From NCBI GenBank assembly GCA_003161635.1, contig PMOA01000139.1, positions 54,782 through 100,454 on the forward strand: a stretch of DNA of 45,673 nt, given 5' to 3'. Source of the DNA: Limisphaerales bacterium (lineage in GTDB: Bacteria > Verrucomicrobiota > Verrucomicrobiia > Limisphaerales > UBA11358). The notes below the pieces were generated by a model, which saw nothing but the letters and a program-made list of their open reading frames with translations, did not search any database and had not been told where the DNA came from. Below are positions 9,518 to 35,716 of this stretch, piece by piece. Every line of letters starts with the position of its first letter. The stretch's first letter is position 1. A program made the position numbers and the translations under genes.

Positions 9518-10894
9518 TCACACCGCAACCGCCCTGGCCGGCTGCGGCTGGATGATTTTGATTTTCGGATGGCGCGCGCGGATTTGTTCCTCAAACCAGG
9601 CGCGGGAATCCTCACCGCCGTGGCCGAGTAAAATCGCGCGCGGCGAAACCCGCCCGACGAAATCCAGCAAATCCCCGCGGTTCGCGTGCGCGGTCAAATC
9701 GAAATCCAGCACTTCGCATTTACGGGTGACCCGGCCGGCGCTGGGGCTGAACACAAACGTTTCACCTTGTTTCGCTGCCTTCAACCGTCCGCCCGGCGTG
9801 TTCGGGTCCGCATAACCGACGAAGAAAATGGATTGCCGCTCGTCACCAACCATGCGCGCGGCGAGGTTATGGGCGGCGGTGTTCTCGCTCATCATGCCGG
9901 CGGTAATCACAAAGATGCGTCCGCCGCTGAGCTTCATTTTTTCCGACTGGCCCTGTTCCAGCACGATGAGTTGCAGCGACTCGTGCAATTGCAAATTCGT
10001 GTGCTGACGATGCGCCCGGTGCGCTTCCAGATCGTAAATCTCCGTGAACACGCGGCCCAGGCCGCCGATGTAAATCGGCTGCGGCTTCAATTTGCCCGCG
10101 CGCATGAGCAACGCGAGCAGCGCCAGAATCTCCTGCGTGCGCCCCAGCGCAAACGACGGAATCAGCACGCAGCCTTTGCGTTTGAGCGCGCGCTGGATCG
10201 CCGCAGTGAGCCGCTCGATTTCGCCTTCCCGCGAAAAATCCGGCGGCGTCGCGCGGTTGCCCCGCGTCGTTTCCATGACGAGCACGTCGGCCTTCACGTC
10301 TTCAAAGCGCGCGGCCCGCAACATCGTCTGGTCGTGAAAGCAAACGTCGCCGGTGTAAAACAGCGTCTCCTTTTTTCCGCGAATCAAAAGGCCCGCCGAG
10401 CCCAGCGTGTGCCCGGCATCAAAAAATTCCAGCGTCGGGGAGGCGAATCCCGCGCGGGTTTTGTGAAACGCCGCCCATTCGACTTCCCGATTGTAGCGGA
10501 AGCCCTGAAACACCGGCGCGATGTCGTCCACCTCGTCGTGCGTGTAGAGCGGATATTCCCGGATGCCCAGCTCATCGCGCTGGCGCGTCATCACGTTCAC
10601 CGAATTGTGCAGCACGCGCTCGACGATGAAATAGCTCAACTCGCTCATCAGCACATGCGCTTTGGGGAAATGCCGCAATGCCACCGGCAGCGCGCCGACG
10701 TGATCGTGATGGCAATGAGAAATCGCAATCGCGTCCACCTCCACATTCCCCGCCTTGCCGAACAGCGGCAGCGCGTCGCGGCCTTCGCGTTTCGGGTGCA
10801 TCCCCGCGTCGAGCAAAATGCGGTGGTCATCCACCTCCACCAGCCAGGCACTCGCGCCGATGTCCGTGTCGGGATTCAGATTCGTAATGTTCAC
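9518..10894 (-). CDS. Metallo-beta-lactamase / beta-CASP RNA nuclease (CPSF73-like)
   Basis: 458 residues. The N-terminal metallo-beta-lactamase half has the zinc motif SHCHHDHVG at 59-67 and AGHTLGSAG near 160. The beta-CASP insert follows, with METTRGNR (motif A), IPSFALGRTQEILALL and TAGMM, and the C-terminal part has LTAHANRGDL (motif B) and LGHGGE (motif C). These are the hallmarks of prokaryotic relatives of CPSF73/Ysh1 that cut or trim RNA. Cytoplasmic. The RNA substrate cannot be told from sequence. Monocistronic; the upstream spacer contains repeats. Confidence 0.92.
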   Translation of the reverse strand: MNITNLNPDTDIGASAWLVEVDDHRILLDAGMHPKREGRDALPLFGKAGNVEVDAIAISHCHHDHVGALPVALRHFPKAHVLMSELSYFIVERVLHNSVNVMTRQRDELGIREYPLYTHDEVDDIAPVFQGFRYNREVEWAAFHKTRAGFASPTLEFFDAGHTLGSAGLLIRGKKETLFYTGDVCFHDQTMLRAARFEDVKADVLVMETTRGNRATPPDFSREGEIERLTAAIQRALKRKGCVLIPSFALGRTQEILALLALLMRAGKLKPQPIYIGGLGRVFTEIYDLEAHRAHRQHTNLQLHESLQLIVLEQGQSEKMKLSGGRIFVITAGMMSENTAAHNLAARMVGDERQSIFFVGYADPNTPGGRLKAAKQGETFVFSPSAGRVTRKCEVLDFDLTAHANRGDLLDFVGRVSPRAILLGHGGEDSRAWFEEQIRARHPKIKIIQPQPARAVAV

Positions 10895-10957: not shown

Positions 10958-11022
10958 GGTAGGGCCGAGCTGCTGTTCTGCCCAAACTTAAATCCGGGCG
11001 GCGCAGCAGCGCCCGCCCTACC
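10958..11022. repeat. GGTAGGG-type palindromic element, intergenic copy 1
   Basis: Terminal inverted repeat GGTAGGG (10958-10964) and CCCTACC (11016-11022), enclosing a strong hairpin with a GGGCGGCGC left arm and a weaker one containing GCTGCT. Same ends as the elements at 12852 and 34431. Confidence 0.7.
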
Positions 11023-11028
11023 GAAGAA

Positions 11029-12840
11029 TTATTTCGAGGGATACCGCCAGACCCAGTCGCCGGTGTTTACGTCCATCGAGCCACCCTTTGTGAAACCAAC
11101 CTCTCCACCGTCATCCGTTCCGTTCCAGCCGACCGAGTAGAGAACGAATTGGCCATCCGAAGTGCGGCGATAGTGCAACGGCTGGTCGTTGATGATATCG
11201 TGCGGCAGTTTGGCTATGAACTGCGGCGACAATACGGCGAGCGATTCGGGATACTCACCGTGCGCGAGGCGATAACGCTCCAGCGCGATTGCCACCCGGG
11301 CCAGATTCACGGAGTTTTGTCCGGCGGCAAATTTCTTCGCGGCATTGCCGAGCGCGGGCAGCATCAGCTTTTCAAGCATATTGAAAGGGCTGACAGATTT
11401 TATTTCAGCCGTTAATGCAGCATCACCGCGCCGGGCCAGGGCTGGAGAAAAAGTGCCTTGGTTCACATCCGCCAGCGGCAAATAATAATCCACCATCATG
11501 CGGGCGCAGCGAAACTGGTTTTGATAAAACCAGCCGGGAGGGATCAAACGGGCGGCGATTTTGCCCGGCAGAAGTCGCTTGCTGCTTTTTGCTTCGTCAC
11601 CACCTAAGGCCCAAAAATCCTGCAAGCACTCCGGGTGCCGACGCAGGCGGTCCATTTCGCTGCCTTGAAAACCCAATTCGCTGTGCATACCCAGCTTGTA
11701 ATCTGGAAGAAAATCCAGCTTCGCAAGTTCCGCATCGAGCGCGACCAGTTGTTCATCCGACCATTTGTGTTCCGCCAAACCTTCCCAAACCGGCTGGAGC
11801 ATGATTTGCAGCATCGCAATGCGGACCAAATGAGAAATCAAACACGGCTCGGTGCGAATTTTGCCGGTCAGTTGCAACGCCAGCTTCGCATCGGCCAGGG
11901 CCTTTTCGGTTTGACCTTTTTGCAATTCGGCAATGGCACGCAATTGCAGCACCTGACTGCATCGCTTCAGCTTTGCCAGGTGCGGGAGTAAAATTGCAGC
12001 CGGATCGTCCTTTTCATATTCCAGCGGAAACCGGGAATAAGAAAGCCGGCTGGCTTCGCGCAATTCCTCGATGGCCGGATCGTATTTGCTCAAGGCCAGC
12101 AAAACATCTTCGGCTGGCGATTGCGGCTGCGATGCGATTGGAAATTCATTGGTTGCAATTGCCGGATTTCGATCTGTTTGGGCTGGAGCACGATAATATG
12201 CCTGCCACGATTTGAGGTCCGTAATGGTTCCTTTCGCCCAGTTGCCGTTGGTTGGCCCGCTTCCCCAATCATTGTTGCGAACAATATCCAGCGCCAGCCG
12301 GTCGGTGAAATTGGTGCGGCCATTGTCAGGGAATTTATCTCCAAACCACAGACGTGAATTTTTAGGGCCAAGCGTGGCTTTGATGGATTCAACCCAAATC
12401 GGCACCAAAGCAAAATTTTGTTCGTCCGGCACCGGCGGCGGGACCACGCTGGCAAAATCAAAATGTTCACCCTTGGCCTCCCATTCCTGTTTAAATTTGT
12501 TCCAGGTGTGCCAGCCGCGCCAGTCCTCCTCGGCGTAAAACAGCGCAATCAGCGTGGCCAGGCAAGCGGCGCCAAACAGCAGCCGCCGGAAGTTGCGCCA
12601 GCAAAAAAAACTGCGGATGAAAGCCCAAAGGCCAACAAACACGGTGGCGACTACCACGCTGACAACGAGCGTGAAAACCAGCGCCGGCCACCAGTCCGAA
12701 AAATGTCGTGGCCCGTCGGGAATAAACAGAGTGACAATCAAAATGGTGAAAAAAGTCGCAGCCACCACCATCAGCCACGCGCGCAGCCAGTGCAGACCAG
12801 CCCACGATTTCTTCCAGATGCTTTTTGGTTTTTCGTTCAT
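11029..12840 (-). CDS. Large membrane protein of unknown function
   Basis: 603 residues. Three hydrophobic helices occupy the first 105 residues (about 20-40, 50-72, 84-101). A long soluble region follows, mostly helical, with an (A/L)xxL-rich stretch near 290-330 (LRAIAELQKGQTEKALADAK) that resembles a TPR-like helix pair. The C-terminal 75 residues (RVAIALERYRLAHGEYPESL, LPHD and YSVGWNGTDDGG) match a tail I associate with planctomycete and verrucomicrobial proteins and that recalls the C-terminus of GspG-type pseudopilins. It lies 66 nt downstream of the anti-sigma gene, with a palindromic element between them, and may be part of the sigma-factor regulon. No function is assigned. Confidence 0.7.
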   Translation of the reverse strand: MNEKPKSIWKKSWAGLHWLRAWLMVVAATFFTILIVTLFIPDGPRHFSDWWPALVFTLVVSVVVATVFVGLWAFIRSFFCWRNFRRLLFGAACLATLIALFYAEEDWRGWHTWNKFKQEWEAKGEHFDFASVVPPPVPDEQNFALVPIWVESIKATLGPKNSRLWFGDKFPDNGRTNFTDRLALDIVRNNDWGSGPTNGNWAKGTITDLKSWQAYYRAPAQTDRNPAIATNEFPIASQPQSPAEDVLLALSKYDPAIEELREASRLSYSRFPLEYEKDDPAAILLPHLAKLKRCSQVLQLRAIAELQKGQTEKALADAKLALQLTGKIRTEPCLISHLVRIAMLQIMLQPVWEGLAEHKWSDEQLVALDAELAKLDFLPDYKLGMHSELGFQGSEMDRLRRHPECLQDFWALGGDEAKSSKRLLPGKIAARLIPPGWFYQNQFRCARMMVDYYLPLADVNQGTFSPALARRGDAALTAEIKSVSPFNMLEKLMLPALGNAAKKFAAGQNSVNLARVAIALERYRLAHGEYPESLAVLSPQFIAKLPHDIINDQPLHYRRTSDGQFVLYSVGWNGTDDGGEVGFTKGGSMDVNTGDWVWRYPSK

Positions 12841-12851
12841 AAATTTATTTT

Positions 12852-12903
12852 GGTAGGGCCGCGCTGCCGCGCGGCCTCGGACGACCGGCAGGTCGTCCCT
12901 ACC
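12852..12903. repeat. GGTAGGG-type palindromic element, intergenic copy 2 (reference copy)
   Basis: 52 nt. Ends GGTAGGG/CCCTACC (8 bp if the flanking T and A are counted) enclose two hairpins, CCGCGC-TGC-CGCGCGG and GACGACC-GGCA-GGTCGTC. It differs from the copy inside the peptidase gene (34431-34482) at three positions, all in hairpin loops. It sits between the anti-sigma gene and the 603-residue membrane protein gene. Confidence 0.88.
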
Positions 12904-12906
12904 ATT

Positions 12907-13329
12907 TCACGCCGTCATAAATTCCACGCGTTCGCTGCGCGGCTGCGGCACAAATGGTTTAGACCGGTCAGCATCACGTGTGTCACGGGGGCCGATCAAT
13001 TCCGCCATCATCCGCTGCTGTTGCCGCAATTCCACAATGACTTCGGGCGACGGCGGTGCGGTTTTTTCCGCCATGACCGGGGTTTTGTCCCGCAGCGAAA
13101 AATCCACGGTCAGAATCAAAACCCACACTGCGGCCAGCCCGGCCCAGGCCTTGGGATGAGGCCACAGGATGGTTGAGAGTTGAGCGATGAAAGTTGAGCC
13201 GCCTTCGCTCCGCTTCGGCGCGCCAGGGAGTTGAACTTCGGCGGCGGCAAGAATTTCCTCGCGCCATTCGGTAGGGACTTGCCGCAACGGCTGGCGTTGA
13301 AGTTTTTGTTCAAAATTGTCCATGTTCAA
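12907..13329 (-). CDS. Probable anti-sigma factor (single-pass membrane protein)
   Basis: 140 residues, encoded 22 nt downstream of the ECF sigma gene on the same strand, the usual place for a cognate regulator. The N-terminal cytoplasmic part (about 1-55) contains QPLRQVPTEWREEILAA, one membrane helix lies at about 58-77 (WAGLAAVWVLILTVDF), and a short outer tail rich in Pro, Arg and Glu follows. No zinc HxxxCxxC motif is visible, so it is not a classical ZAS protein. Residues 38-50 (PKRSEGGSTFIAQ) look repeat-derived. The anti-sigma role is inferred from position and topology. Confidence 0.6.
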   Translation of the reverse strand: MNMDNFEQKLQRQPLRQVPTEWREEILAAAEVQLPGAPKRSEGGSTFIAQLSTILWPHPKAWAGLAAVWVLILTVDFSLRDKTPVMAEKTAPPSPEVIVELRQQQRMMAELIGPRDTRDADRSKPFVPQPRSERVEFMTA

Positions 13330-18493: not shown

Positions 18494-19206
18494 GATAATA
18501 TCAACCGGCGCGCTGCCTCGAAGACCGTTTCAAAAAAACTGCCGTGAAAATATTCGCGTCCAATAAACTCCACCGACCGCGCCGGGTCCCAGATAAACGG
18601 CCGCAGCACCCAGCAAATTTGACTGCCGAGAAACAGGTTCCCCGCCAGCCACGCGAACAGAACCTTCCGGGCCGTGAACACACTGCGCGCCCATTCCGAC
18701 AGGAGCGGCAGCAAATGCACATTGCCCACAATACCAGCTAACGCGATGAAGCCCGCCAACGTCAATTGCATGACGCCATACTCCGGGGACGACAACTGCA
18801 TCGCAGCCGTGAGCGGCGGCGTGTTCCAGACCACAAACCACGCAACCGGGCTCAGCGCACCCAGCACCAGCGACATGACGGCGAAGCTCATCAAAACCAC
18901 TGCCAGCGACTGGCGGAAAGTCAAGTTGAGACCGAGCAATGGTGCCAGCATTCCGTTCAGCAATCCGTTGCCCAAAGTGGTCAGCAGGATGGCCAGTGGA
19001 AGTTTGATGCCGGTATAGAGCGCCTGCCAAGGACCCCGCCATGATCCCATGACAGCACCATAAACGCCCGCGCCAATCACAATGGCGACGACGCAAAACA
19101 TCACAAGATTCAATTGCCGGCGCAACACCCACTCGCGGAGCAGTTCCGGCCGGGCGCGCAGAAAAACGCCAATGGAACCCAACCGTACAGGCTGGTGGTC
19201 ATGCAA
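18490..19206 (-). CDS. Yip1-like polytopic membrane protein C
   Basis: 238 residues with about five membrane helices. It aligns by eye with the 239-residue protein encoded at 20049-20768: VIGAGVYGAVMGSWRGPWQA, GNGLLNGMLAPLLGLN, and the C-terminal FAWLAGNLFLGSQICWVLRP followed by FIWDP. Proteins of this kind are often annotated as Yip1-family membrane proteins. Third of three consecutive related genes. Confidence 0.72.
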   Translation of the reverse strand: MHDHQPVRLGSIGVFLRARPELLREWVLRRQLNLVMFCVVAIVIGAGVYGAVMGSWRGPWQALYTGIKLPLAILLTTLGNGLLNGMLAPLLGLNLTFRQSLAVVLMSFAVMSLVLGALSPVAWFVVWNTPPLTAAMQLSSPEYGVMQLTLAGFIALAGIVGNVHLLPLLSEWARSVFTARKVLFAWLAGNLFLGSQICWVLRPFIWDPARSVEFIGREYFHGSFFETVFEAARRLILS

Positions 19207-20048: not shown

Positions 20049-20768
20049 TTAATCGAATTGCTGGAAAATTTGCAGCAGCGAATGGAAAATATTTTCATAA
20101 AAATTTCCGTGAAGCGCCGCTGCGCGGAAAAACTCCACGGGCAACAACGGCGACCCGATGAATGGGCGTAAAGTCCACGAAAGCTGGCTCCCGAGAAACA
20201 GATTGACTGCCAGCCACGCGAACAACACCCGGCGCGCGACAGTCCGGCTGCCGCCCAGCTGCGCGAGCAGTTGAAACAAACGCACATTGCCTGTTATGCC
20301 GGCGAAAGCAATGACGGCGACATGCGTGAGCTTGATAAAACTATAGGTCGATCCGGAAACCGCTTCCGGCGACATTGATGGCGCGTTCCAAACCATGAAT
20401 GCCAGCAGCGGGCTGAACGCGCCGAGAATGGCCGCCGCAATGACAAAGCTCATCAAAATGGCCGAGAAAGACTGGCGGAACGGGATGTTCAAGCCCAGCA
20501 ACGGCGCGAGCATGGCGTTGAGCAGCGCATTGCCGCCGGTGGTAAACAGGATGATGAGCGGGAATTTGACGGCCGTGAAAAGCGCCTGTTGCGGATCGCG
20601 CCACCAACCCATCGCTGCGCCATAAAGTCCCGCGCCAACGATGATGACGACAACGTGCAGTGCAAGCCGTCGCGCGCTCCATTGCCCGGCCCAGGCCGCG
20701 ATCCTCTCCGGCTCGCCGCACAATAGCACGCTGATTTCGCGTGGATTTAATTCGTCAAGCGCATACAT
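20049..20768 (-). CDS. Yip1-like polytopic membrane protein A
   Basis: 239 residues with about five membrane helices and a short soluble N-terminus (MYALDELNPREISVLLCGEP). Shared blocks with protein C are VGAGLYGAAMGWWRDPQQA, GNALLNAMLAPLLGLN and FAWLAVNLFLGSQLSWTLRP. The ATG lies inside the end of ispH (22-nt overlap), so translation is probably coupled to ispH. First gene of the Yip1-like trio. Confidence 0.72.
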   Translation of the reverse strand: MYALDELNPREISVLLCGEPERIAAWAGQWSARRLALHVVVIIVGAGLYGAAMGWWRDPQQALFTAVKFPLIILFTTGGNALLNAMLAPLLGLNIPFRQSFSAILMSFVIAAAILGAFSPLLAFMVWNAPSMSPEAVSGSTYSFIKLTHVAVIAFAGITGNVRLFQLLAQLGGSRTVARRVLFAWLAVNLFLGSQLSWTLRPFIGSPLLPVEFFRAAALHGNFYENIFHSLLQIFQQFD

Positions 20769-25959: not shown

Positions 25960-28698
25960 ATGGCCGCCGAAGCCCAACTGACTCCCATGATGACGCAGTA
26001 TCGCCGCATCAAGAGCGAACTGCCCAAGGACGCGCTGCTGCTGTTCCGCCTCGGCGATTTTTATGAAATGTTTTTCGAGGATGCTCAGACCGGCGCGCAA
26101 CTCCTCAACCTCGCGCTCACCGCCCGCAACGGCGTGCCGATGTGCGGCCTGCCGCATCATGCGGCCCATGCCTACATCGGCAAACTGCTCAAAGCCGGAC
26201 GGAAAGTTGCCATCTGCGACCAGCTCGAGGACGCCCAACCCGGCAAGCTCGTCAAACGCGAGGTCACCCAAATCCTGTCGCCCGGCACGCATTTCGACGA
26301 GCGGATACTCGTGGCCGAACGTAATAACTTCCTCGCCGCGATTTACCCGCTGGGAAAAACTTTCGGCCTCGCGCTGGTGGATTTGACCACGGGCGATTTC
26401 ATGACTACGGAATTGGAGGCCGGGTCAGCCCTCCTGACTGAATTGGAACGATTGCGCCCGGCGGAAATTATTTATCCGGGTGAGTCGGTGGCTGTGCGCG
26501 AACTGCTTGGCAGCCGCCGACGTGAATCGGCGCAAACTTCGCCAAGCGATGGTCAGCGCGCTTTCACAAGCGCGGCTACGGGGCAAGGCTGGATTCTCAA
26601 TGGCTACGACGACTGGACGTTCGCGCCGGAAACCGCGCTTTATACGGTGCGCGACCATTTCAAGGTCGCGTCGCTCGACGGGTTCGGGCTGAAGGACCGC
26701 ACCGCCGCCATCGGCGCGGCCGGCGCGGCGCTGCATTATCTCACGCAACACCTGCGCCGCGACGTGAAGCATCTCACGCGGCTGTCGTTTTATAGTCGGA
26801 ACGACTATCTCGCGCTGGATTACACAACACTGCGGCATCTCGAAATCCTCGAACCGCTCCACCATGATGCTCCGCGCAACGCTTCACTTTACGGCGCGGT
26901 CAACCGCACCGTCACGCCGATGGGCGCGCGGATGTTGCGCAACTGGCTTTCGCAACCGCTGGCTGCCGTTGAACCAATTCGCCGCCGTCAGGAAACGGTG
27001 CAGACGTTCATCGGGAACTCGGCGGGCCTCGACCGTTTTCGCGCGCAGCTCGCGAACGTACGTGATCTGGAGCGCACCCTGGGCCGGTTGAGTTCCGGCA
27101 GCGGCAACGCGCGCGACCTCGTCGCCTTGCGCATGGCCTTGGAACAAATACCGGCGGTAAAACAAATTCTTCGCAATGTAGGAGTTGAGATAACGAGACT
27201 CACTTCAACGGAAAATCAGAGCCTCCTTACGTCGTCTCCTACAAATGAATTGGAGGACGCGCAGCAGCACGTTCCTACCTTGATGGAAGACCTTGAATCC
27301 CAGCTCACCGAATCGCCCGACCTCGTGGAGTTGATTTCGCGCGCCATCGTGGATGACCCGCCGCTCGCCGTGAAAGAGGGTGGCATGATTCGCGACGGCT
27401 TCGATGCGTCGCTCGACGAACTCCGCGACGCGATGCGCGGCGGCAAGGATTGGATTGCGAAGTTACAGGCGGACGAAATCGAGCGCACCGGCATCACATC
27501 GCTGAAAGTCCGATTCAATTCCGTCTTCGGCTACTACATCGAAGTCACGAAGTCGAATCTCGACAAGGTCCCGCCGCATTACATCCGCAAGCAGACCGTC
27601 GCCAACGGCGAACGCTACATCACGCCCGAACTGAAGGAGATGGAAGGCAAAATCCTCGGCGCGGAGGAACGCAGCGTGAAACTGGAATATGAGCTTTTCC
27701 AACGCGTGCGCGAGGAAATGATGGGTCGCCTGCCGCAAATACAACAAACCGCTGCCGTCCTCGCCCAACTCGACGTGCTGGCGTCGTTCGCCGAGACGGC
27801 GCGTTTGCACAGCTACTGTCGCGCGGTCGTCGCCGACGAAGGGGTGCTGCAAATTCGCGACGGACGCCATCCGGTCCTGGAACAGAACCTCGCCGATGAG
27901 CGTTTTGTGCCGAATGATGCCTCCCTTTCCAGTAGCAGCGGACGTCAGTCCGCTCCAATTTCTCAAGCAGAAGATCAGAGCCGACTCACGTCGGCTGCTA
28001 CGGAGGGAGCTTTCCCCCAAATCGCGCTTATCACCGGGCCGAACATGGCAGGCAAAAGCACTTACATCCGGCAGGTGGCGCTCATCACGCTGCTGGCGCA
28101 CACCGGTTCGTTCGTCCCGGCAGTGGAGGCGCGGATTGATCTGGTGGACCGGATTTTCACGCGCATCGGCGCGAGCGACGATCTTACGCGCGGGCAGTCA
28201 ACCTTCATGGTCGAAATGACCGAGACCGCGAACATCCTGAACAACGCCACGCCGCGCAGCCTCATCGTGCTCGACGAAATCGGGCGCGGCACGAGCACAT
28301 TCGACGGCCTGAGCCTCGCGTGGAGCATCGTCGAGCACCTGCACAACCAGGTCGGCGCGAAGACGCTGTTTGCCACGCATTACCACGAACTGACCGAACT
28401 GGCGCAACGCCTGCCGCGATTGAAAAATTTCAATGTGGCCGTGCGCGAATGGCGCGACCAGATTGTGTTCCTGCGGAAAATTGTCGAAGGCGGCACGGAC
28501 AAAAGCTACGGCATCCACGTCGCGCGGCTGGCTGGCGTGCCGAAGGAAGTGTTGGAGCGGGCGAAGGTGATTCTCGGCAACCTCGAAGAATCCGAGCTGA
28601 CGCCGGAAGGAACCGTGCGCCAGTCTCCGCGCCGGCAGCAGGACCGCGACAAGCTCAAGCAACTCGCCCCGCCACCACAGATGGATTTATTTGGGTGA
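25960..28698 (+). CDS. mutS: DNA mismatch repair ATPase MutS with three repeat-encoded inserts
   Basis: 912 residues, against about 850-880 for typical MutS1. Domain I has the mismatch-reading LFRLGDFYEMFFEDA (Phe-X-Glu). The core and clamp follow, then the ATPase part with Walker A GPNMAGKST near 693, LIVLDEIGRGTSTFDG near 768 and ATHYHEL near 805. Three stretches do not fit the family: about residues 184-207, 406-429 and 658-681. Each is encoded by a palindromic element (26510, 27177, 27932) and is rich in Ser, Thr, Arg and Gln. They lie at the connector/core area, in the core/lever region and just before the ATPase. Removing about 70 residues restores normal length. Catalytic residues are intact, so the protein is probably active. 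Confidence 0.96.
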   Translation: MAAEAQLTPMMTQYRRIKSELPKDALLLFRLGDFYEMFFEDAQTGAQLLNLALTARNGVPMCGLPHHAAHAYIGKLLKAGRKVAICDQLEDAQPGKLVKREVTQILSPGTHFDERILVAERNNFLAAIYPLGKTFGLALVDLTTGDFMTTELEAGSALLTELERLRPAEIIYPGESVAVRELLGSRRRESAQTSPSDGQRAFTSAATGQGWILNGYDDWTFAPETALYTVRDHFKVASLDGFGLKDRTAAIGAAGAALHYLTQHLRRDVKHLTRLSFYSRNDYLALDYTTLRHLEILEPLHHDAPRNASLYGAVNRTVTPMGARMLRNWLSQPLAAVEPIRRRQETVQTFIGNSAGLDRFRAQLANVRDLERTLGRLSSGSGNARDLVALRMALEQIPAVKQILRNVGVEITRLTSTENQSLLTSSPTNELEDAQQHVPTLMEDLESQLTESPDLVELISRAIVDDPPLAVKEGGMIRDGFDASLDELRDAMRGGKDWIAKLQADEIERTGITSLKVRFNSVFGYYIEVTKSNLDKVPPHYIRKQTVANGERYITPELKEMEGKILGAEERSVKLEYELFQRVREEMMGRLPQIQQTAAVLAQLDVLASFAETARLHSYCRAVVADEGVLQIRDGRHPVLEQNLADERFVPNDASLSSSSGRQSAPISQAEDQSRLTSAATEGAFPQIALITGPNMAGKSTYIRQVALITLLAHTGSFVPAVEARIDLVDRIFTRIGASDDLTRGQSTFMVEMTETANILNNATPRSLIVLDEIGRGTSTFDGLSLAWSIVEHLHNQVGAKTLFATHYHELTELAQRLPRLKNFNVAVREWRDQIVFLRKIVEGGTDKSYGIHVARLAGVPKEVLERAKVILGNLEESELTPEGTVRQSPRRQQDRDKLKQLAPPPQMDLFG
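26510..26580. repeat. Palindromic element inside mutS, copy a
   Basis: Ends GCAGCCGC and GCGGCTAC (one mismatch as an inverted repeat), with hairpins CGCCGA-N6-TCGGCG and CGCGCTT-TCAC-AAGCGCG. It is in frame and adds about 24 residues containing SAQTSPSDGQRAFTSAA. The right end resembles the right ends of copies b and c (CAG, stem, TCAC, stem, GGCTACGG). Confidence 0.75.
27177..27243. repeat. Palindromic element inside mutS, copy b
   Basis: Ends TGTAGGAG (27177-27184) and CTCCTACA (27236-27243), perfect 8-bp inverted repeat. The right half (AAAATCAGAGCC, then TTACGTCG) lines up with the right half of copy c. The internal stems are weak, so this is an older or degenerate copy. It encodes a Ser/Thr-rich stretch including RLTSTENQSLLTSS. 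Confidence 0.72.
27932..28001. repeat. Palindromic element inside mutS, copy c
   Basis: 70 nt. Ends GTAGCAGC (27932-27939) and GCTGCTAC (27994-28001) enclose hairpins AGCGGAC-GTCA-GTCCGCT and AGCCGAC-TCAC-GTCGGCT. The right half matches, in reverse orientation, the left half of the intergenic copy at 23234. It encodes SSGRQSAPISQAEDQSRLTS, about 25 codons before the Walker A motif begins. Confidence 0.88.
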
Positions 28699-29663: not shown

Positions 29664-31802
29664 ATGATTTCGGTCGTTGAACCCCAGCCCGCCGGAGCGG
29701 GCATTGACCTGGTAAAGCAGGTCGAGGCGATCTTTTCGCCGACGGGACTGCTGTCGCGCGCGAAGAATTTCGAGTATCGCCCCCAGCAGCAGCAGATGGC
29801 CGTAGCCGTGGCGCGCGCGCTCCAGAACCGCGAGCATCTCGCGGTCGAGGCCGGCACGGGCGTCGGCAAATCGCTGGCCTATCTGATTCCGGCGATTTTG
29901 TTCGCGGTGGCGCAGAAAAAGAAAGCGGTAGTTTCCACTCACACCATCAATTTGCAGGAGCAGCTCACGGAAAAGGATTTGCCGATGCTCGCGCAGATTT
30001 TGCCGGGGAAATTCAACTTCACGATGCTCAAAGGCCGCGCGAATTATCTCTGCACGCGCCGGTTGCAAAAGGCGATGCAGCAGTCCGGCAATTTGTTCAC
30101 GTCGTCCGAGGCCGAGGAACTCCAGCGCATTTACGAATGGTCGAAGAAAACCAAAGACGGCAGCCTGTCGGATTTTGACATCGAGCCGGACATGAAAGTG
30201 TGGGCGCAGGTCTGTTCCGAGCGCGGCCTGTGCTCGCCGAAAATATGCGGGCATCCGTCCGATTTCGCCAAAGACCACGGTGTTTGTTTTTTCCAGCGGG
30301 CGCGCAACCGCATTCTGTCATCGGACGTGCTGGTGTTGAATCACACGCTGTTTTTCACGCTGCTCGGCGGCGTGGACGAGGACATGGAGGGCGGCATTTT
30401 ATTCAAGAACGACTTCGTGATTTTCGACGAGGCGCACCAGATGGAACATGTGGCGTCGCGGCACATCGGCCTGAGCGTGTCGAGCGGGCAGATGCGTTAT
30501 GCGCTGAACCGGCTCTGGAATCCGCGCACGGAAAAGGGGCTGCTGGCGACGTTGCGCAAGGGCGCCGCGGTGAAACTGGTGGCTGACATTTTGAGCGAAG
30601 CCGACAAGTTTTTTGAGAATGTCGAGACCGCCTGCGAAGAAATTCAGAGCCACGCCAGGCGCGACAGTTTTGGCGGCGGTGAAGGTGGCGGACGCCGCCG
30701 CGCGTGGACGGAGCTCCGCATCCGCCGCGCGGAACTGGTGAAGGACAACGTCACGCTGCCAATTCAGCGTTTGCGTGAAGCCATGGGCGACTTGATTAAA
30801 TTGAGCGCGGACAAGGACATCGGGCAGGAGCTGGTCGAGTGCAACCGCCGGCTGGCCGAGCTTCGCGACGAAGTGAAGGCGTTCCTCGAGCAGAGCGCAG
30901 CCGACCACGTCTATTGGGTCGAACGCAGCGGCAAGGCGCACAAAAATCTTGCGTTGAACGCCGCGCCGATTGACGTGGCGGAATTTTTGCGCCGGCGTTT
31001 GTTCGAGAGCGACACCAGCATCATCATGACGAGTGCGACACTGGCGACAAGCGTGCTGCCGGCGTCCCGCCGGCAGAGCCAATCCGAGACAAACAGAACT
31101 GCCGGCAAGATGCCGGCAGCACGTTCGGGCGGATTGAATTACTTCGTCCGCCGCGTCGGCGCGGAATCCGCCGCCCAATTGCAGGCCGGCACGCCGTTCG
31201 ATTACGAGCGGCAGATGAAAATTTTTGTCGCCCAAAAAATGCCCGACCCGCGCGAGGCCGGTTATGCCGCTGCGCTCGAACATTGGATTGCCCATTTCGT
31301 GAAGCAGACCCACGGCAAGGCGTTTGTATTGTTCACGAATTACAAGCTCATGCAGGAACTCGGCGAGCGGATGGAGCCGTTTTTCAACAAGCTTGGGGTC
31401 GCGTGTTTTGTGCAAGGCAAGGGCACGCCGCGCTCGACGATGCTGGAAAAATTCAAGGACGATGTGGACTCGGTGCTGTTCGGCACGGACAGTTTCTGGC
31501 AGGGCGTGGACGTGCCGGGCGAGGCCTTGAGCAACGTCATCATCACGCGGCTGCCGTTCGCCGTGCCGGACCATCCGCTCATCGAGGCGCGCATCGAGGC
31601 GATTGAAGCACGCGGCGGGAATTCCTTCAGCGAATTTTCATTACCGGAGGCGATTTTAAAATTCCGCCAGGGCGTGGGCCGGTTGATCCGCACCAAAACC
31701 GACACGGGCATCATCGTGGTGCTGGACAATCGCGTGCTCACGAAGCAATACGGTCAGGCCTTTCTCGACGCGCTGCCGAAATGTCCGGTAGAAATTGTTT
31801 GA
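29664..31802 (+). CDS. dinG: DinG/XPD-type Fe-S DNA helicase with a repeat-encoded insert
   Basis: 712 residues. Walker A EAGTGVGKS at 62-70, motif Ia STHTINLQEQ, cluster cysteines among C130, C184, C190, C195 and C208, and DEAH at 255-258. A motif TSATLATS near 454 is followed at once by the insert, and the late motifs are GTDSFWQGVDVPGEAL and QGVGRLIRTKTD. It unwinds DNA 5'-3' in repair. Residues about 464-487 are encoded by a palindromic element (31053-31122), where relatives have a short loop leading to LNYFVRRVG. The final 14 residues are repeated downstream in two other copies of the gene's 3' end. dinG is the closest familiar name; the YoaA branch is also possible. Confidence 0.9.
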   Translation: MISVVEPQPAGAGIDLVKQVEAIFSPTGLLSRAKNFEYRPQQQQMAVAVARALQNREHLAVEAGTGVGKSLAYLIPAILFAVAQKKKAVVSTHTINLQEQLTEKDLPMLAQILPGKFNFTMLKGRANYLCTRRLQKAMQQSGNLFTSSEAEELQRIYEWSKKTKDGSLSDFDIEPDMKVWAQVCSERGLCSPKICGHPSDFAKDHGVCFFQRARNRILSSDVLVLNHTLFFTLLGGVDEDMEGGILFKNDFVIFDEAHQMEHVASRHIGLSVSSGQMRYALNRLWNPRTEKGLLATLRKGAAVKLVADILSEADKFFENVETACEEIQSHARRDSFGGGEGGGRRRAWTELRIRRAELVKDNVTLPIQRLREAMGDLIKLSADKDIGQELVECNRRLAELRDEVKAFLEQSAADHVYWVERSGKAHKNLALNAAPIDVAEFLRRRLFESDTSIIMTSATLATSVLPASRRQSQSETNRTAGKMPAARSGGLNYFVRRVGAESAAQLQAGTPFDYERQMKIFVAQKMPDPREAGYAAALEHWIAHFVKQTHGKAFVLFTNYKLMQELGERMEPFFNKLGVACFVQGKGTPRSTMLEKFKDDVDSVLFGTDSFWQGVDVPGEALSNVIITRLPFAVPDHPLIEARIEAIEARGGNSFSEFSLPEAILKFRQGVGRLIRTKTDTGIIVVLDNRVLTKQYGQAFLDALPKCPVEIV
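31053..31122. repeat. Palindromic element inside the DinG-type helicase gene
   Basis: 70 nt with perfect 11-bp ends GTGCTGCCGGC and GCCGGCAGCAC. It encloses hairpins CTGCCGGC-GTCCC-GCCGGCAG and CTGCCGGCA-AGA-TGCCGGCAG. It is in frame and encodes LPASRRQSQSETNRTAGKMP followed by AA. Same architecture as the other elements, different sequence family. Confidence 0.88.
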
Positions 31803-31804
31803 AA
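31761..31804. repeat. dinG 3'-end direct repeat, copy 1 (in the intact gene)
   Basis: 44 nt covering the last 13 codons and stop of the helicase gene (FLDALPKCPVEIV). Copy 2 at 32707-32750 differs at two positions, both synonymous third codon positions. Candidate attachment or recombination site. Confidence 0.8.
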
Positions 31805-32666: not shown

Positions 32667-32706
32667 CTTGGCACAATACCAAATCCGCCGAATGATTCAA
32701 CCTGCA

Positions 32707-32750
32707 TTTCTCGACGCGCTGCCGAAATGTCCGGTGGAGATTGTTTGAAA
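32707..32750. repeat. dinG 3'-end direct repeat, copy 2
   Basis: 44-nt near-copy of 31761-31804 with the same reading (FLDALPKCPVEIV and stop). The two differences are GTA to GTG and GAA to GAG, both silent. It has no gene body in front of it, so it is a remnant. Confidence 0.85.
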
Positions 32751-33412: not shown

Positions 33413-33462
33413 TGTGTTTGGTTTACGCCCGCCAAAATCTCGTGTCGAGAAGAAAGGGGAAA

Positions 33463-33524
33463 AGTGGCACAGGCCTCCGGCCTGTGGAGTAATTACTTTT
33501 CACAGGCTGGAAGCCTATGCCACT
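33463..33524. repeat. AGTGGCA-type palindromic element, intergenic
   Basis: Ends AGTGGCACAGGC (33463-33474) and GCCTATGCCACT (33513-33524), one mismatch, with hairpins CACAGGCC-TCC-GGCCTGTG and AGGCT-GGA-AGCCT. Same two-hairpin plan as the other elements. It lies just ahead of the chimeric fragment at 33533. Confidence 0.8.
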
Positions 33525-33532
33525 CTGAAGCC

Positions 33533-33601
33533 ATGACGCGCACGGAAAAACTCCTGGCCGAATTCATCGCCCTTCCCAATTGCTTGGTGGAAATAGTCTG
33601 A
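33533..33601 (+). pseudogene. Chimeric remnant: peptidase gene start fused to dinG gene end
   Basis: A 22-codon frame reads MTRTEKLLAEFIALPNCLVE and ends IV-stop. The first part repeats the start of the M20 peptidase at 34351 (MTRTEKLLAELIALP), and the last part repeats the end of the helicase (LPKCPVEIV-stop). Both intact genes share GCGCTGCC at the corresponding spot, a microhomology that could have joined them. Too short to be a functional gene as far as can be told. Confidence 0.75.
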
Positions 33602-33607
33602 ACCGCC

Positions 33608-34350: not shown

Positions 34351-35640
34351 ATGACGCGCACGGAAAAACTTCTGGCCGAACTCATCGCGCTGCCTAGCGT
34401 GAATCCCGCCTTCGTTCCGCTTTCGCCTGCGGTAGGGCCGCGCGGTCGCGCGGCCTCGGACGACCAGCAGGTCGTCCCTACCAACCCACACGCCGGGGAA
34501 AAGCGCGTCGCGGATTTTCTCGCCACCGTCGCCGCGCGCGCCGGGCTCGAAGTCGAATTCCAGAAGGTTCTGCCCGGTCGTTCCAATGTCATTGCCCGCC
34601 TCTTGCCGCGAAACAAAATCCGCCAAACCATCCTGCTCGCGCCACACCTCGACACCGTCAACGCCGACGATTCGCAATTCGTTCCGCGCCGGAAAAACGG
34701 CCGGCTGTACGGACGCGGCGCGTGTGACACCAAAGGTTCCGTCGCCGCAATGCTCACTGCGCTTTGCGAGCTGGCAAACGCAAAATCCCGTCCGCTCGGA
34801 ACCGAAATCGTTTTCGCGGGATTGGTTGACGAGGAACACGCGCAAGCCGGTTCGCGCGCGCTGGTGGGGAGCGCCTGCGGCTCGCAGGCTGTCGTCGCCG
34901 GCCCGGCGACGAGTGGTTGGCGAGCCGCCGAACACAGCAAGCCAGCGGCCTGCGCTCCCAAAAACAAAAATTTCGTTCCGATGAAAGCGGACCTGGCGAT
35001 TGTCGGCGAACCGACGCGATTGCAGGTTGTCACCGCGCACAAAGGCAGTTTGTGGTTGCAGCTCGAAACGTGCGGTAAGGCGGCGCACGGCGCCACACCG
35101 CAGCTCGGTCAAAACGCCGTCCATGAAATGGCGCGCATCGTGGACGCGCTCGAAACGGATTACGCCGCGCGGCTGCGAAAACGCCGGCATCCGCTGCTCG
35201 GCACGGCGACGGTGAACGTCGGCATGATTTCCGGCGGGGCACAACCGAATATCGTGCCTGACTACTGTGCCATTACCATTGATCGGCGGACGTTGCCGGG
35301 CGAAACGGAAACGAGCGTGCGGCGGGAAATTGCCGCGTTGCTGCGCGCGAAAAGATTGTCGGCGAAAATTTCCAGCACGAAGCTCGCGCCATGCCTGCCG
35401 CTGGAAACAAGTTCGAAGCTGCCGCTGGTCCGGCGCTTCCTGCGGAGCGTCGGCCAGACGCGGCCCGCGGGTGTTGATTTTTACTGCGACGCGGCGGTGT
35501 TGTCTCGTGGCGGCATTCCGAGCGTGGTGTTTGGTCCGGGTGACATCGCACAGGCGCACACGGCGGACGAATGGATTTCGCTGGATTCGCTGGAGCGCGG
35601 GAAGGACTTGATTTTGCGCTTTTTACATTCGCTTCCGTGA
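34351..35640 (+). CDS. M20-family metallopeptidase (ArgE/DapE/CPG2 type) with two repeat-encoded inserts
   Basis: 429 residues from ATG 34351; the frame is open upstream to 34261, but the duplicated start at 33533 and the terminator at 34254 support 34351. Metal and catalytic residues are visible: H99 and D101 in APHLDTV, D126 in ACDTKG, E161/E162 in LVDEEHAQAG, E220 in VGEPT, H246 in AAHGATP, and a late His in AQAHTADEW. It is a cytoplasmic amidohydrolase of N-acyl amino acids or peptides. Two stretches are extra: about residues 27-45 (in the element at 34431) and 173-203 (in the element at 34867). The second lies before the VGEPT strand. Substrate uncertain. Confidence 0.9.
   Translation: MTRTEKLLAELIALPSVNPAFVPLSPAVGPRGRAASDDQQVVPTNPHAGEKRVADFLATVAARAGLEVEFQKVLPGRSNVIARLLPRNKIRQTILLAPHLDTVNADDSQFVPRRKNGRLYGRGACDTKGSVAAMLTALCELANAKSRPLGTEIVFAGLVDEEHAQAGSRALVGSACGSQAVVAGPATSGWRAAEHSKPAACAPKNKNFVPMKADLAIVGEPTRLQVVTAHKGSLWLQLETCGKAAHGATPQLGQNAVHEMARIVDALETDYAARLRKRRHPLLGTATVNVGMISGGAQPNIVPDYCAITIDRRTLPGETETSVRREIAALLRAKRLSAKISSTKLAPCLPLETSSKLPLVRRFLRSVGQTRPAGVDFYCDAAVLSRGGIPSVVFGPGDIAQAHTADEWISLDSLERGKDLILRFLHSLP
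34431..34482. repeat. GGTAGGG-type palindromic element inside the peptidase gene
   Basis: 52 nt. Ends GGTAGGG/CCCTACC, with hairpins GGCCGCGCG-GT-CGCGCGGCC and GACGACC-AGCA-GGTCGTC. It differs from the intergenic copy at 12852-12903 at three loop positions only. It encodes VGPRGRAASDDQQVVPT in frame. Confidence 0.92.
34867..34959. repeat. GGGAGCGC-type multi-hairpin element inside the peptidase gene
   Basis: 93 nt (31 codons). Ends GGGAGCGC/GCGCTCCC with hairpins GCCTGCG-GCT-CGCAGGC and GTCGCCGG-C-CCGGCGAC, plus a weaker GTGGTTGGCG / CGCCGAACAC stem. It encodes an Ala/Ser-rich segment (CGSQAVVAGPATSGWRAAEH). Confidence 0.85.
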
Positions 35641-35647
35641 TTTTTTG

Positions 35648-35716
35648 TGGGAGGGACGGCGTGCCGCCGTCCCATTTTTTGATTTAGTTTGGGACGCCGA
35701 CACGGCGTCCCTCCCA
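35648..35716. repeat. TGGGAGGGACG-type palindromic element, intergenic
   Basis: Perfect 11-bp ends TGGGAGGGACG (35648-35658) and CGTCCCTCCCA (35706-35716), hairpins GGGACGGCG-TGC-CGCCGTCCC and GGGACGCCG-ACA-CGGCGTCCC. Eight nt after the peptidase stop; T-runs flank the first hairpin, so it may also end transcription. Confidence 0.88.

Follow-up and report, generated by a model that had tools for sequence, protein, structure and literature searches.

GTAG-tagged palindromes, very probably of the REPIN type, inside and between genes of a Limisphaerales bacterium, and enzyme loops with different inserts in different relatives

A 52-nt palindrome found both between genes and inside a peptidase gene of a Limisphaerales bacterium belongs to a family dispersed over the genome, about a third of whose copies lie in coding frames. 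These elements are very probably non-autonomous, REPIN-type DNA that is moved by Y1/RAYT transposases and kept in genes where it falls in frame at tolerant loops. Conserved enzymes are normally purged of insertions. This genome carries dozens of recognizable ones in such genes, and the corresponding sites of congeners are empty or differently filled. The way in which protein loops arise, the sites that can accept an insertion, and the part of transposase or selection in setting codon phase thus become open to direct test. Caution is also warranted, as a loop of this kind in a genome-assembled protein can derive from a mobile element and not be a family signature.

The window, by which we mean the whole 45,673-nt stretch of contig PMOA01000139.1 that was analyzed, holds two close copies. 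One (34431-34482, + strand, 70.3 bits) lies in frame in an M20/M25/M40 peptidase gene recognized by frame and Pfam (34351-35640, + strand, ATG at 34351), where it encodes residues 28-44, VGPRGRAASDDQQVVPT. The other (12852-12903, + strand, 81.7 bits) is intergenic, flanked by minus-strand open reading frames (ORFs) 12907-13329 and 11029-12840, neither of which gave a match in a Pfam scan. The copies agree at 49 of 52 bases. The predicted fold has a 5-bp outer stem and two 8-bp hairpins, and all three mismatches fall in its two 4-nt loops, those at 34444 and 34446 in the first (34444-34447) and that at 34466 in the second (34466-34469). The two-hairpin fold beats shuffles (z of -4.1 for 34431-34482 and -7.1 for 12852-12903, + strand), and a search of the window allowing up to three mismatches returned exactly these two copies, while none of 100 dinucleotide shuffles gave any. 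An earlier note, made from the letters of this DNA, had placed one copy between genes and the other within the M20 frame, with differences confined to the hairpin loops, and it was right on both counts. A third GTAGGG dimer, more diverged (10958-11022, + strand, 43.8/41.8 bits; z -3.4) lies between minus-strand ORFs 9518-10894 and 11029-12840, and the GGAG-tagged palindrome GGGAGGGACGGC, a weaker model match, sits directly 3' of the M20 stop (35649-35715, + strand, 35.6 bits; z -8.0).

Twenty-four aligned copies share one plan: GGTAGGG, an 8-bp stem with a TGCY-type loop, a spacer of about 0 to 12 nt, a second 8-bp stem, and CCCTACC, the two tags (columns 9-15 and 64-70) being invariant or nearly so. 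Stem sequences vary among these copies yet pair, with 98.2% of 504 pair cells standard. Double-sided changes occupy 62 pair cells, against 23.9 in shuffles (0 of 500 as high), 9 of 21 stem pairs show changes on both sides, and the covariation score is 0.339, against 0.109 in shuffles. Several marks of a REP dimer are therefore present, namely inverted halves with tags outside and a short spacer, a GTAG tetranucleotide at the foot of each hairpin, and high copy number dispersed over the genome (79 elements).

A BLAST search of the source genome (4.31 Mb, 159 contigs) with the intergenic copy as the query gave at least 49 matches at E <= 10, a count that includes some places matched on both strands and comes from scoring 40 of 123 first-look candidates. 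With a covariance model built from the 24 copies, at least 150 strand-hits were obtained at E <= 0.01, a lower bound because 150 of 6515 candidates were scored, and at least 79 distinct elements on many contigs were recognized (kept from 81 loci, with 12 weaker places dropped). Across the genus, in a search with stricter filters, at least 33 of 49 genomes, the source genome included, have a match at E <= 1e-8 among the matches listed. In the same list, the source genome is the richest (94 strand-hits), followed by G040 (39), in a set of assemblies that are fragmented and in several cases incomplete.

An element was assigned to a coding ORF when a stop-free frame ran across it with at least 120 nt on each side and both flanks had codon scores above 0.05 and within 0.1 of the best of the six frames. 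The score, trained on 30 window ORFs, separates frames moderately (median of 0.26 in frame; about 5 to 10% of wrong-frame 150-nt pieces exceed 0.05). By this fixed criterion, 27 of 79 elements of the source genome lie in coding ORFs and 52 elsewhere; the figure for congeners is 21 of 60, these 60 being the elements fetched, from 20 congeners, among at least 63 deduplicated places. Most elements are therefore extragenic, but the criterion is conservative, and the in-gene share is a third or more. It supersedes a hand-made list, which had 30 of 79 in genes and 49 outside them; it omits the M20 element itself, L054 (MiaB-like), L236 (5-enolpyruvylshikimate-3-phosphate [EPSP] synthase), and L201 (amine oxidase) and adds L024. 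The counts over the whole genome, in genes and in spacers, bear out the earlier suggestion of a dispersed palindrome that tolerates coding positions.

The many copies off coding ORFs, like the strong covariation, would also suit terminators or mRNA stabilizers, that is, regulatory hairpins selected at the RNA level whose coding copies are exaptations. We regard this as very unlikely: the covariation is equally expected from a transposase that recognizes DNA hairpins, an Rfam scan of the window returned nothing at the gathering score, and at the M20 and MnmA sites the insert is missing from most genus genes, which argues against a conserved regulatory role there.

A Pfam domain was recognized at E <= 1e-5 in 26 of the 29 host ORFs scanned in the source genome (all but L010, L231, and L238), and many in-gene elements sit within such domains. 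The hosts include IleRS, with two elements in one gene, a ProRS-like synthetase, CysRS, MnmA, a radical-SAM/TRAM (MiaB-like) enzyme, HypF, UvrA, EPSP synthase, two protein kinases, CinA, and an AcrB-family pump, and segments of the GRAELPLGQDAQQRVPT type are element-encoded stretches in these enzymes. Aligned with PDB 8c9e, IleRS shows a clean 21-residue gap opposite its first element, and residues 138-164 of MnmA, around the element, remain unaligned with PDB 2der; with CysRS and EPSP synthase, the alignment to PDB sequences continues through the element.

REP dimers and REPINs are a known kind of element, including intragenic copies in a verrucomicrobium. GTAG-tagged REPs in head-to-head dimers have been described inside genes of Opitutus terrae (Di Nocera et al. 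2013, PMC3733652), the species with the highest number of intragenic GTAG repeats in that account, which names uvrA as a host gene in O. terrae and tRNA synthetase genes as hosts in other species, and which gives one example, Xanthomonas recB, where distinct REPs occupy roughly one position. The passages considered of that paper agree with our elements in that each hairpin ends in the tag, the pair is inverted around a short spacer, stem residues alternate in complementary fashion, copies number in the tens or more with some of them intragenic, and one gene can hold double insertions; the likeness rests on this anatomy and not on a sequence match to a named GTAG family. Unlike the GTAG REPs as described there, about a third of the present elements lie in genes, and the same passages do not mention length classes, a codon-boundary rule, or genus-wide refilling of loops. 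REPINs, two inverted REPs that form one replicative unit, for which a clover fold was discussed, were proposed to be associated with RAYT transposases (Bertels and Rainey 2011, PMC3116915). The earlier note had likened the palindrome to Rickettsia palindromic elements, which are inserted, with the reading frame kept, in a wide range of unrelated protein genes (Ogata et al. 2000, 2002, as covered in PMC10969869 and PMC3733652). That likeness stands for function, in-frame insertion in unrelated genes being common to both, but the closest kind is the GTAG REP dimer (REPIN) in a Limisphaerales lineage; the Rickettsia elements, of about 150 bp and from another lineage, are set apart by their description in those sources, not by sequence. 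In the open-licence literature, our searches listed no paper that deals with REPs of Limisphaerales or Pedosphaera, and the main text of RepRanger 2025 (PMC12306157), as far as covered, contains neither "intragenic" nor "Verrucomicrob." Apparently new are the present lineage, the share of elements in coding ORFs (27 of 79 in the source genome and 21 of 60 in congeners, with IleRS, CysRS, and MnmA among the hosts), the length and codon-boundary rules, and the refilling, across the genus, of particular loops in several enzymes.

In-gene elements differ from the others in length. A multiple of three is found in 42 of 48 in-gene elements and in 30 of 91 elsewhere; the split is 22 of 27 against 17 of 52 in the source genome (Fisher p 4e-5) and 20 of 21 against 13 of 39 in congeners (Fisher p 2e-6), where the in-gene cases are partly non-independent, several being the same gene and site. 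The 3' end coincides with a codon boundary in 47 of the 48. Elements with lengths that are multiples of three read GGT AGG ... CCT ACC (41 of 42), and the six of length 3n+1 read (xx)G GTA GGG ... CCT ACC. In 23 of the 30 hand-listed in-gene elements, four of the six frames are stop-free, two per strand.

The base 5' of the 48 in-gene elements is T in 75%, C in 16%, A in 8%, and G in 0%, and the base 3' of them is A in 54%, G in 41%, T in 4%, and C in 0%; the ends of elements outside genes show the same tendency (T 56% and C 24% of 182). We considered whether target composition alone could produce the codon-boundary rule and rejected this. Genes of the source genome have T at codon position 3 in 15% of codons, T|R steps are twice as common within codons, after position 2 (2211), as at boundaries (1108), and Y|R steps are slightly commoner at boundaries (6454 against 4900 after position 2), so target choice alone fails to explain the phase. 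Codons with T at position 2 specify hydrophobic residues, which are often buried; one idea is that insertions after such a T are lost because of this. A further possibility, which we hold tentatively, is that these are coding-adapted REPINs, with 51- and 54-nt subfamilies made of whole codons, stop-free in the frame used and flush with codon boundaries, that serve as natural in-frame loop cassettes and replace given loops of essential enzymes time and again. On this view, selfish DNA would keep supplying proteins with new loops, and the codon-boundary rule (47 of 48) may stem from a property of insertion as well as from selection.

The M20 gene, whose named relatives are from Limisphaerales/Verrucomicrobia subdivision 3, allowed its insertion site to be followed across the genus. 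The M20 query matched in 46 of 49 genus genomes, a few of the matches being weak; 45 loci were read, the source locus included, and 44 cover the site. Of these 44, again with the source gene among them, 32 have only a short LPPRHP-type segment and lack the insert, and 12, including those of the source genome and G003, have extra residues. At this site L070, whose M20 protein looks the same as that of G003, carries a three-hairpin palindrome, GGTAGGGACGGC...CCCTACC. Orthologues that lack the segment therefore exist, as the alignment suggested in the earlier note was meant to reveal. Its statement that relatives continue directly applies to the 32 short genus genes but not to the nearest metagenomic relatives, which keep the own-type peptide or carry a different one. 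That note had also held that orthologues with conserved protein over diverged, non-palindromic DNA would speak against a mobile palindrome; where DNA was at hand, orthologues either lacked the segment or carried something else in its place, a second GTAGGG palindrome in L070 and different inserts in others, and in-gene copies that orthologues share in cysS and other genes remain palindromic. The metagenomic proteins that keep VGPRCRAASDDQQVVPT are seen as protein only.

To this locus set we added metagenomic relatives, giving 165 M20 proteins (the source protein, 119 metagenomic best hits, and the 45 loci, with self-copies, identical proteins, and loci shorter than 340 residues left out). Sorted by peptide, in a set whose metagenomic part was picked by similarity to an insert-bearing query, 49 proteins have the own type, 46 the ARQAR type, and 38 no segment; rarer classes are GTRGPRV (9), GTARRAVR (8), RTRGPVAQ (5), LRRDKSARQ (4), and others (4), and 2 are unreadable. 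DNA was seen for the loci only, palindromes in metagenomic members being inferred from peptide, and inspection of the locus DNA by eye revealed no clear palindrome in ARQAR-type inserts. The M20 site is thus a recurrent slot with several insert classes, not the place of one private insertion. The persistence of GPRCRAASDDQQVVPT, nearly unchanged in several metagenomic relatives (seen as protein), could suggest a conserved functional protein loop over a coincidental DNA palindrome. This is extremely improbable, as the same DNA also stands in spacers and in unrelated proteins, is absent from most genus M20 genes, and is read in different frames (VGPRCRAAS in 52-mers, GRAELPLG in 51-mers). The AlphaFold model of the M20 protein (mean pLDDT of 49, the insert a coil at 35-40) was too poor to use. 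The protein has a second extra segment at residues 175-210 (34873-34980, + strand), where most genus-mate matches break; it is weakly structured (z -2.7, with 3 of 200 shuffles as good).

On a quick tree of the remaining M20 protein (357 columns), in which 74 of 161 inner branches are drawn open (support below 80), the insert classes require 55 changes, against a shuffled mean of 92.2 (0 of 200 as low). The starred branches alone force at least six changes for the own-type class. Sisters that differ at SH-aLRT values of 98 to 99 are P0006, with the insert, and P0040, without it, as well as P0086 and P0093, P0095 and P0103, and P0101 and P0105, although recombination can mimic such class switching. 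It is accordingly conceivable, if rather unlikely, that in-gene copies are not new insertions but are inherited, and pass from species to species when gene segments undergo homologous recombination, with the palindrome as a passenger. The clustering of insert class on the tree fits this, as do near-identical elements whose codon position is shared by several congeners (in three cysS genes and three kllgay genes), and recombination of the 5' ends of genes would resemble class switching. However, in MnmA and IleRS the same loop holds palindromes of different sequence, and 79 copies stand at unrelated places in one genome; recombination explains sharing, not dispersal.

Mobile REPINs remain our preferred reading, and the proposal that a loop can be refilled by another element leads one to expect different palindromes in the same loop of different species. 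MnmA matched in 44 genomes, and of 40 loci read (source included), 22 have a short loop, 15 have an insert, and 3 fall outside the search pattern. Twelve of the 15 inserts fold better than all 100 shuffles (not L317, L322, and L326), and by sight at least six sequence types occur: GTAGCAGC..GACG, CCCCTCACCC, GGAGCGCCGAG, GTAGCGCAGGC, GTGGAACAG, and GGTAGGG. At the first IleRS site, 20 of 30 loci have 0 to 5 extra residues and 10 have 11 to 36; four of these 10 long inserts fold at or below -0.5 kcal/nt (absolute energies, no shuffles) and look like four different palindromes. The other six, together with the three MnmA inserts, lack a strong fold, which counts against the REPIN explanation. 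Of 30 CysRS loci, 24 matched the search pattern; 14 of these keep a short native loop, four carry GTAGGG elements, whose right halves are of two kinds, and the inserts of L426 and L430, known from protein, are of other types. The M20, MnmA, IleRS, and CysRS loops thus hold different inserts in different relatives, which is apparently new. The net gain in residues is often unequal to the element length (about +19 for 17 in M20, +21 for 17 in MnmA, +9 for 18 and +7 for 17 in CysRS), so precise insertion is not supported and the loops have been reshaped; no target duplication was identified around the elements.

Two further observations concern IleRS. The source protein (L395) has a 26-residue extra segment at residues ~137-162 in common with L396; it is absent in 27 of 28 other aligned loci, and L422 has 18 residues there. 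The window has a AGTGGCACAGGC..GCCTATGCCACT palindrome at 33462-33530 (z -7.5), and the IleRS loop of L396 is filled by one starting GTGGCACAGGCC.

As for the mobilizing enzyme, Y1_Tnp occurs in 44 of 49 genus genomes, the source genome included, which has ten matches in an assembly that is 94.6% complete. We scanned 59 of a larger number of Y1_Tnp loci with the covariance model and for GTAG or GGAG hairpins. None of the 59 is a RAYT gene directly flanked by the GTAGGG family; three have a strong element, each ~1.2 to 1.4 kb away, and two have weak matches. The REPINs described in PMC3116915 differ in this respect, being extragenic in the parts of that paper covered, with a RAYT beside each group. 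The Y1 genes L030 and L036-L039 have tagged hairpins (GTAG or GGAG) nearby; L030, L038, and L039 have them on either side, and the first ten bases of two such flanking families (GTAGCGCAGG and GGAGCGCCGA) reappear in congener MnmA inserts. A related GTAGGGCGGGCAGTCC repeat ~330 to 700 nt from a Y1_Tnp match in G010 (L257) was rejected as cognate, its model score being only 21.7 bits.

In the mechanism that we propose, the 52-nt element would be a head-to-head dimer of GTAG-tagged REPs, a non-autonomous mobile REPIN, each half comprising GGTAGGG, an 8-bp stem, and a 4-nt loop and lying inverted ~0 to 12 nt from the other. A single strand would fold into a clover, with an outer GGTAG/CTACC stem and two hairpins. 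A Y1 tyrosine transposase of the RAYT type may act on single-stranded DNA, recognizing the hairpins together with the GTAG tag and inserting the unit preferentially at a pyrimidine|purine step. In genes, the survivors would be those that leave the frame open, at a codon boundary in a tolerant loop, and a retained copy would amount to 17 to 21 extra residues that gradually lose the palindrome.

Other palindromes and gene-end copies were seen in the window. MutS, compared with PDB 7ai5, has two extra segments, residues 408-443 and 659-687 (27181-27288 and 27934-28020); the first looks like a decayed palindrome followed by half a GTAGGG element, and the second contains a GTAGCAGC..GCTGCTAC palindrome. 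A strong palindrome, GTGCTGCCGGCG..TGCCGGCAGCAC (31045-31130, z -7.6), lies in the DEAD/Helicase_C_2 ORF 29664-31802. A 94% copy of the final 47 nt of the helicase gene (31758-31804) stands ~950 nt downstream of that gene (32704-32750). At 33532-33603, a copy of the M20 start (MTRTEKLLAEFIALP) is fused to an apparent copy of the C-terminal end of the upstream helicase (..LVEIV, stop), which looks like a chimeric gene-end fragment; similar mnmA gene-end fragments lie on the mnmA contig in G000, G006, and G015. Finally, 100-nt stretches at 18565-18664 and 20130-20229, in neighboring ORFs, are 70% identical, perhaps reflecting paralogous genes.
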